Shown: one piece after another, positions 54,882 to 55,703 of the stretch
Layout of the letters: every line of letters starts with the position of its first letter
Numbering within the stretch: the first letter of the stretch is position 1
DNA from: Pachyseris speciosa
Lineage: Eukaryota; Cnidaria; Anthozoa; Scleractinia; Pachyseridae
Length of the DNA: 64,000 bases
Direction of reading: 5' to 3'
NCBI GenBank assembly: GCA_016490735.1
Contig: JAEMWC010000057.1
Location: forward strand, 824,501-888,500
The notes under the pieces: generated by a model
The model's input: only the letters and a program-made list of their open reading frames with translations
The model's database searches: none
What the model was told of the DNA's origin: nothing
Position numbers and translations under genes: made by a program

Positions 54882-55185
54882 AACATTCTACTCCAATATA
54901 CCAGCAGGCCAGAAAGGGTTTATTTATTTCATAAACCTCCGATTAATTTTGATTTCGCGTATACACAGTTGAAAGTGTTGAAAAAGAGTGATCTGACGAC
55001 GATCACGATGACGCAAACAACTGCATTGATTGCAGTGAAAACGTAAAGCTTGTGGGATGTGGCTGGAGTGACAAGGATACTTCATAAATTAATGTGATCG
55101 AGTAAGCTGAAACCACTCTAGGGACAATAAGGCCACAAGGTAGCGGGCATCACCCCTTAAATTTACCAAAGAAAAGATTGAACCC

Positions 55186-55254
55186 GAGCATTAGCAGCCA
55201 TGGACAGCTGTTTCGGCCTTGTTAGGCCTCATCAGCATAGCATAGCTAATGCTC
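55186..55254 (-). ncRNA. Hammerhead ribozyme 1 (intact core)
   Basis: On the minus strand: stem I 5' strand (55254-55236), core CTGATGA (55235-55229), stem II GGCC/GGCC with loop TAACAA (55228-55215), GAA (55214-55212), stem III ACAG/CTGT (55211-55204, a loopless palindrome), cleavage C at 55203, stem I 3' strand CATGGC then GCTAATGCTC (55202-55186). Outer stem I has a 10-bp pairing. All invariant core positions are present. A palindromic stem III suggests cleavage as a dimer, as known for Penelope-type hammerheads. Confidence 0.85.
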
Positions 55255-55468
55255 AGGCTCAAGTACCCACATATCAATAAAACAAGCAGTGAAAACGTAA
55301 AGCTTGTGGAATGTGGCTGAAGTGACAAGGATACTTCACAAATAAATGTGATCAAGTACTGTAAGCTGAAGCCAGTCTAAGAGCTCTAAGGCCATAAGGT
55401 AGCGCGCATTACCCCTTAAATCTACGTTTCACTGCTTGTTTTATTGATATGTGGGTACTTGAGCTTCA

Positions 55469-55533
55469 GCATTAGCTATGCCATGCTGATGAGGCCTAAC
55501 AAGACCGAAACAGCTGTCCATGGCTGCTAATGC
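55469..55533 (+). ncRNA. Hammerhead ribozyme 2
   Basis: Plus strand: stem I 5' strand GCATTAGC, bulge, GCCATG (55469-55485); CTGATGA (55486-55492); stem II GGCC/GACC around TAACAA with one C-A mismatch; GAA (55507-55509); stem III palindrome ACAGCTGT; C (55518); CATGGC and GCTAATGC (55519-55533). The core is complete; the stem II mismatch may weaken it. Confidence 0.82.
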
Positions 55534-55703
55534 TCGGGTTCAATCTTTTTGGTAGATGAAAGGGGTAATGCCCGCACCTCAATCTTTTCTTTGGTAGATT
55601 TAAGGGGTAATGCCCGCTACCTTGTGGCCTTAGTGCCCTTAGAGTGGCTTCAGCTTACTTGATCACATTAGTTTGTGAAGTATCTATCCAACTGCATTGA
55701 TTG

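Follow-up and report, generated by a model that had tools for sequence, protein, structure and literature searches.

Retrozymes of the coral Pachyseris speciosa: head-to-head copies with two fixed outer ends and a probable Penelope-type mode of insertion

Retrozymes in the genome of the stony coral Pachyseris speciosa are built in a regular way. The copies sampled are single insertions bounded by one target-site duplication (TSD), their outer 3' ends fall at two fixed sites – one of each per head-to-head insertion – and the arms of one insertion are alike and hold several units per arm. The starting point was an insertion in a stretch of 64,000 nucleotides (contig JAEMWC010000057.1; hereafter the window), an old and defective copy of a metazoan non-LTR retrozyme, an element type already described. 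The pattern is probably the product of retrozyme circles copied in trans by the machinery of Penelope-like elements (PLEs). What may be new is the mode of copy construction, the retrozyme kind itself being already known: in the texts covered, neither head-to-head retrozymes nor a two-site end rule for them is described.

The window insertion is a single insertion of 656 bp (55033-55688), enclosed by an exact 15-bp direct repeat, CAACTGCATTGATTG, at 55018-55032 and 55689-55703 (plus strand). The first-pass annotation had reported this duplication with a length of 14 bp: the duplication holds, the length is 15 bp, and one of these bases is possibly common to element and target. The 14-mer occurs at only two places in the window, the two flanks (0.00 expected; 100 shuffles). 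Phases are counted from the hammerhead cleavage site (phase 0). The left arm (55033-55425, minus strand; 393 bp, 1.5 units) terminates on its outer 3' side at the long site (phase 166 by the automated call), and the right arm (55427-55688, plus strand; 262 bp, about one unit) at the short site (phase 126), followed by TATC, which is repeated at this end. A tail-like extension between the short and long 3' sites, 43 nt by direct reading (55033-55075, minus strand), is found on the left arm only. The 5' ends of both arms meet at an inversion junction (55425-55427, by direct reading of the sequence) where a few bases (TAC) are, by eye, common to both, and the right arm contains an internal tandem duplication of 39-42 bp (55540-55622, plus strand). 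Direct copies of the unit are spaced 254-259 bp and are followed by an inverted copy; the inverted-repeat arms match at 97% over 123 nt and at 92% over 106 nt, bearing out the original description of a 254-bp unit that begins twice in one direction and once inverted. The GC content of the arms is 44%, and no reading frame of 130 aa or more overlapping the insertion was found in the window. A DNA transposon or MITE was rejected on the grounds that the outer termini are not inverted repeats; the idea of a nested second insertion was likewise rejected.

Type I hammerheads are present on both strands, as first described. The minus-strand copy (55186-55254) has a complete core (55235-55203), an outer stem I of 10 bp and a predicted cleavage point between 55203 and 55202 – the cleavage point had been given correctly – and the plus-strand copy (55469-55533; core 55486-55518; predicted cleavage at 55518/55519) has a mismatch in stem II. 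The core pattern matches twice in the window against 0.00 expected in 100 shuffles, which rules out chance. At relaxed Rfam level each copy is matched: the minus copy by Hammerhead_1 (30.1 bits against a gathering score of 34, E 2.9e-5 in 901 bases) and the plus copy by Hammerhead_HH9 (27.1 bits). At gathering level Rfam reports zero hammerheads in the window, and zero in loci L009 and L034; less diverged copies elsewhere reach 33.9 bits, 0.1 bit below gathering. In the fold of minimum energy, stem II and the outer stem I are formed, with the core GCUG predicted to pair with CAGC in place of the catalytic junction: for this reason folding alone would lend no support to ribozyme activity of the window hammerheads.

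The first-pass annotation left the family unnamed; it can now be called a metazoan non-LTR retrozyme, as in corals according to the portion of PMC7229834 considered here. Across the whole genome the hammerhead-core pattern has 6354 matches (3219 on one strand, 3135 on the other) and the reversed pattern, used as a control, none: the earlier reading was staked on the existence of other copies of the unit, and there are thousands of core matches. The unit is exactly 254 nt in 63 of 78 full units, retrozyme units being defined by a size of about 170-400 nt and by multiple copies, often in tandem. Besides this small multi-copy unit, the family has a type I hammerhead (scoring below gathering), a GC content under 50%, TSDs of more than 4 bp and a unit RNA predicted to form a stable self-paired circle (-77.3 kcal/mol, z -3.7 against 200 shuffles, 65% paired). 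The core had no matches in viral contigs or in contigs of prokaryote genomes, and the whole insert none in phages, as expected for an animal element. Between the arms of one retrozyme insertion (L033, positions 2075-3028) a 25-nt piece (phase 112-136) is repeated at least eight times, so that the sequence close to the short start site is locally expanded.

Two samples of 40 loci were compared. The query-ranked sample consists of the loci most like the window insertion, its own (L048) included. The genomic-order sample consists of the first 40 clusters of the core-pattern list (contigs C1-C3 as listed plus the first three clusters on C4); selection required an intact core but was independent of inversion, and about 1.4-2.8 kb were taken for each locus, so that longer insertions may have lost their ends. 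In genomic order, 21 of 40 loci are head-to-head (minus then plus), 19 have a single orientation and none is tail-to-tail. Over both samples, the window copy included, 43 of 80 loci contain both orientations, every time minus then plus; the same order was seen by eye in all of at least nine both-strand clusters among 100 places listed of the 6354 core matches. One TSD surrounds both arms in the window copy and in 28 other loci. A TSD of at least 9 bp (9-16 bp) is present in 14 of the 40 genomic-order loci, 13 of them head-to-head, and in these 13 it measures 12-16 bp; 60 random pairs of positions gave one 7-mer.

The outer ends of these 13 loci follow a simple rule. In every case one end lies at phase 124-128 and the other at phase 159-170, the short and long sites being 34-45 nt apart (mean 39); if ends were independent and equally used, the probability of 13 out of 13 would be 0.5^13 = 1.2e-4. 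Among the 16 TSD-bounded head-to-head loci of the query-ranked sample, 12 are one-of-each by program and one more by eye, four pairs having no such classification: the right end of L025 is short by eye ('other' by program), and L013, L015 and L033 are the remaining exceptions. A further locus with a TSD, L011, has ends at 127 and 164 by eye and falls outside the TSD rows of the program's tally. Head-to-head loci of the genomic-order sample without a TSD are clearly one-of-each, by their alignment ends, in two of eight cases (L057, L084), and single-orientation copies with TSDs use either site. There is no association between arm length and type of end (the long-end arm is the longer in 6 of 13), and no poly(A) was seen at those TSD-trimmed retrozyme ends that were inspected.

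The likeness of units was assessed for 246 units of at least 80 nt from 60 loci. Divergence is 1.10% inside a single arm and 0.88% from one arm of an insertion to the other, against 3.35% when different insertions are compared; random re-pairing of arms over 26 insertions gave no value as low as that observed (0 of 2000), and in 25 of the 26 an insertion's own plus-strand arm is closer than the mean of the others. Least diverged are L009, with no differences in 13 unit pairs, and L034, with 13 unit copies (0.15% and 0.26%). Divergence within the arm is not below that to other insertions in 8 of 53 loci (L027, L040, L042, L044, L045, L048, L060, L062), nor is divergence between arms in 3 of 26 (L012, L014, L048); loci without excess likeness may be older copies. 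The window copy is among the most diverged sampled (11.9% within the left arm, 7.7% between arms, 7.3% to other insertions), its left units being separated by 14 differences over 91 sites and by a 5-nt indel. Tests of a uniform template on this copy gave p 0.07-0.12 overall and 0.014, 0.028 and 0.089 for parts; it is too diverged to display a single-template signal. Arms alike within an insertion are what one circular template would give, and a uniform linear multimer is also compatible with them. Inner 5' ends are not gathered at the cleavage site (1 of 42, with 1.8 expected, and 2 of 44, with 1.9 expected), their phases fall short of perfect uniformity (p 0.014 and 0.11), and 31 of 43 inner junctions overlap by 1-11 nt, a count that carries no null for chance overlap. 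The pattern of inner ends agrees with two cDNAs having read a circle and been joined at their ends by microhomology.

We propose that a multi-unit transcript would cut itself at its hammerheads, and that the unit-length RNA would close into a circle; retrozyme RNA circles are known, from the part of PMC7229834 considered, for another coral, Acropora millepora. A Penelope-like GIY-YIG reverse transcriptase would nick both target strands some 12-16 bp apart, and each nicked 3' end would serve as primer on one shared circle, at the short site (phase 124-130) for one strand and at the long site (phase 158-170) for the other. Each cDNA would go partway or several times round the circle, and the cDNA 3' ends would join via microhomology, leaving units head-to-head inside a TSD. 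We infer that the template was circular rather than a uniform linear multimer, and that the Penelope protein acted in trans. The original idea of an element retroposed head-to-head from a circular or multimeric self-cleaving RNA is strengthened by the TSDs, end sites and arm likeness found at other loci.

Under twin priming one 3' end should be fixed, with a second, internal start that varies. A LINE reverse transcriptase acting in trans, with the second strand primed internally, would produce an inversion, and LINE-1 insertions of this type are like the retrozymes in having that inversion inside a TSD and microhomology at the inner junction; they differ in that retrozyme outer ends are both fixed – and of opposite kind in all 13 TSD-bounded head-to-head loci – with no poly(A) seen. 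Because both outer ends lie at fixed sites, LINE-1-type twin priming fits less well than a Penelope-type process. It is distinctly unlikely, even given the few bases of overlap at most inner junctions, the TATC repeated at the right end of the window insertion, and TSDs of 12-16 bp, which are LINE-like (Nematostella retrozymes have 15-bp TSDs, which are compared with LINEs in the section of PMC4918200 considered). The first-pass annotation had offered twin priming or a Penelope-like structure; the fixed ends and the likeness to PLEs favor the latter, and the former recedes.

A closer competitor to the circle shares the Penelope-type machinery and differs in its template, a linear multimeric RNA transcribed from a homogeneous tandem array. 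In vitro, the Anolis protein uses mainly unprocessed Penelope RNA as its substrate (PMC11167929), the two left units of the window copy differ more than expected, and the 8 of 53 loci without excess likeness within the arm point the same way. Against it are the likeness between arms relative to that between insertions and the near identity of the least diverged copies, up to the 13 units of L034; homogenisation after insertion could mimic likeness within an arm, less easily between arms. On balance a linear template is rather improbable. That the arms are two adjacent independent insertions, or the outcome of later rearrangement (inversion, gene conversion or assembly artefact), is scarcely credible: inverted repeats can indeed come from rearrangement or read artefacts, but a single TSD encloses both arms at 29 loci, the window's among them, and both orientations, wherever found, stand in the one order. 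A foldback read was rejected for the window copy because its arms differ by 3-8% and one contains the internal duplication. Copying of a circle by Penelope-type machinery remains the preferred reading.

The genome was searched for GIY-YIG elements, of which 150 of 5249 candidates were scored. One frame of 853 aa, open at the edge of the stretch examined, contains RVT_1 and GIY-YIG. At least 20 opposite-strand GIY-YIG pairs lie within about 5 kb of each other among the 150 scored, all of them minus then plus by eye. The ends of seven PLE insertions were analysed, three whole (L089-L091) and four by end windows: in six of the seven, one end is short and the other long, at a spacing of 86-92 nt, those of C56 being ambiguous. 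TSDs are 11-12 bp in the three whole insertions (in L091 the TSD lies 17 bases inside the alignment end) and 11-13 bp in three of the four others. The spacing and TSDs of the examined PLE family thus do not match those of the retrozyme (34-45 nt; 12-16 bp). A minimal hammerhead-like motif was recognized by eye upstream of the PLE ends and was not found by a script pattern requiring GAAAC. Blastn found no match between this PLE family and the retrozyme unit; the best local match, 22 nt and outside the start sites, is borderline (15 of 300 shuffles score as high). The comparison of paired ends covered retrozymes and one PLE family of this genome. Two 225-bp GIY-YIG matches (L092, L093) were considered as a second PLE family or partner and dropped because the similarity between their 3' parts is confined to the coding end, no hammerhead motif was found in either stretch by script, and their best matches to the retrozyme unit span 21-22 nt at E 0.03-0.11. 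They represent another GIY-YIG family with long open frames of 894 and 1299 aa.

In published work, nicking and extension of both strands were shown for purified Penelope protein from Anolis, with reverse transcription starting at two adjacent sites that correspond to the ends of a 30-40-bp tail (PMC11167929), a range that the spacing of retrozyme ends overlaps. The start sites in this assay are the same on top and bottom strands (PMC11167929), and the one-of-each rule is therefore not predicted by it. For rotifers, the portion of PMC3846280 considered describes Penelope copies in which direct and inverted pLTRs lie inside one TSD and one of them bears a 31-bp tail. A possible extension of our proposal, to which we give somewhat less than even weight, is a Penelope-type dimer: two reverse transcriptases on two nicked strands would copy one 254-nt circle simultaneously from starts about 39 nt apart, the short-and-long pairing would be the footprint of two seats, and retrozymes would be circular-RNA parasites of Penelope as SINEs are of LINEs.

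The window copy itself has one hammerhead per strand, and release of a unit by any transcript of it is therefore impossible. Transcribed from either strand, the insert is predicted to fold into a long hairpin in which the hammerhead pairs almost wholly with the inverted copy (63 of 65 and 68 of 69 hammerhead bases in the predicted fold of the insert), and transcription of a head-to-head insertion invariably reaches the antisense arm first. For these reasons the locus is best seen as a dead footprint, which may yield double-stranded RNA.

Other features of the window include a tribbles-like pseudokinase gene of at least two exons (7773-12077, minus strand), which marks the DNA as that of an animal, and a long hairpin at 29764-29850, for which both strands give a weak plant microRNA precursor score short of the gathering level and which is perhaps a small palindromic transposon. 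A decayed hammerhead-like stretch (15671-15710, minus strand) has a core with a deletion (CTGATAG...GAAACAGCTGTC) and resembles the retrozyme unit at 85% over 41 bp only; its Rfam E of 3.7 is not significant alone, and it is perhaps from another retrozyme lineage. A MITE-like imperfect inverted repeat (54785-54905; 50-nt arms, 76% complementary, 21-nt loop) lies directly upstream of the retrozyme insertion, and at 60415-60460 (plus strand) there is a Penelope-type minimal hammerhead-like motif without stem III (CTGATGA..GGTCGAAACGTC) and with a stem I of 5 bp by eye.

PLEs are regarded as strong candidate movers of animal retrozymes (PMC7229834), and retrozymes may rely on them (PMC8969392); within the parts of both papers considered, the mover and the role of circular RNA as template are left open. 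The two-site, one-of-each, head-to-head footprint is genomic evidence on both, and it can easily be looked for in any animal genome. The footprint bears also on the mechanism of Penelope, because the one-of-each rule suggests a two-seat complex that primes both strands.

Among known systems the nearest are the metazoan non-LTR retrozymes of PMC7229834, reported there for Acropora millepora with both linear and circular RNAs. So far as the main text goes, these share with the present family the type I hammerhead, a non-coding unit of a few hundred bp with GC below 50%, tandem units, a TSD exceeding the 4 bp seen in plant retrozymes, a predicted self-paired circle, PLEs in the same genome and a stony coral host. 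The difference is that this main text describes tandem repeats, with PLEs as a candidate only, whereas here the head-to-head arrangement accounts for 21 of the 40 genomic-order loci and the outer 3' ends lie at two fixed sites. Plant LTR retrozymes, as presented in the section of PMC4918200 considered, are alike in that hammerhead-flanked non-coding RNA circles are proposed as template, but have type III hammerheads, an LTR, PBS and PPT, and a 4-bp TSD. With Penelope-like elements (PMC11167929 and PMC3846280, as far as the portions considered extend) the retrozymes have in common direct and inverted units arranged head-to-head in one TSD, hammerheads, two start sites with a tail on one end, and cDNA starts on both strands. 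They differ in lacking an ORF – a 254-nt unit is too small to hold one for RT and GIY-YIG – and in having a fuller type I hammerhead instead of the minimal Penelope form; from the local PLE they differ further in the closer spacing of their ends, with no clear sequence similarity found between the two.
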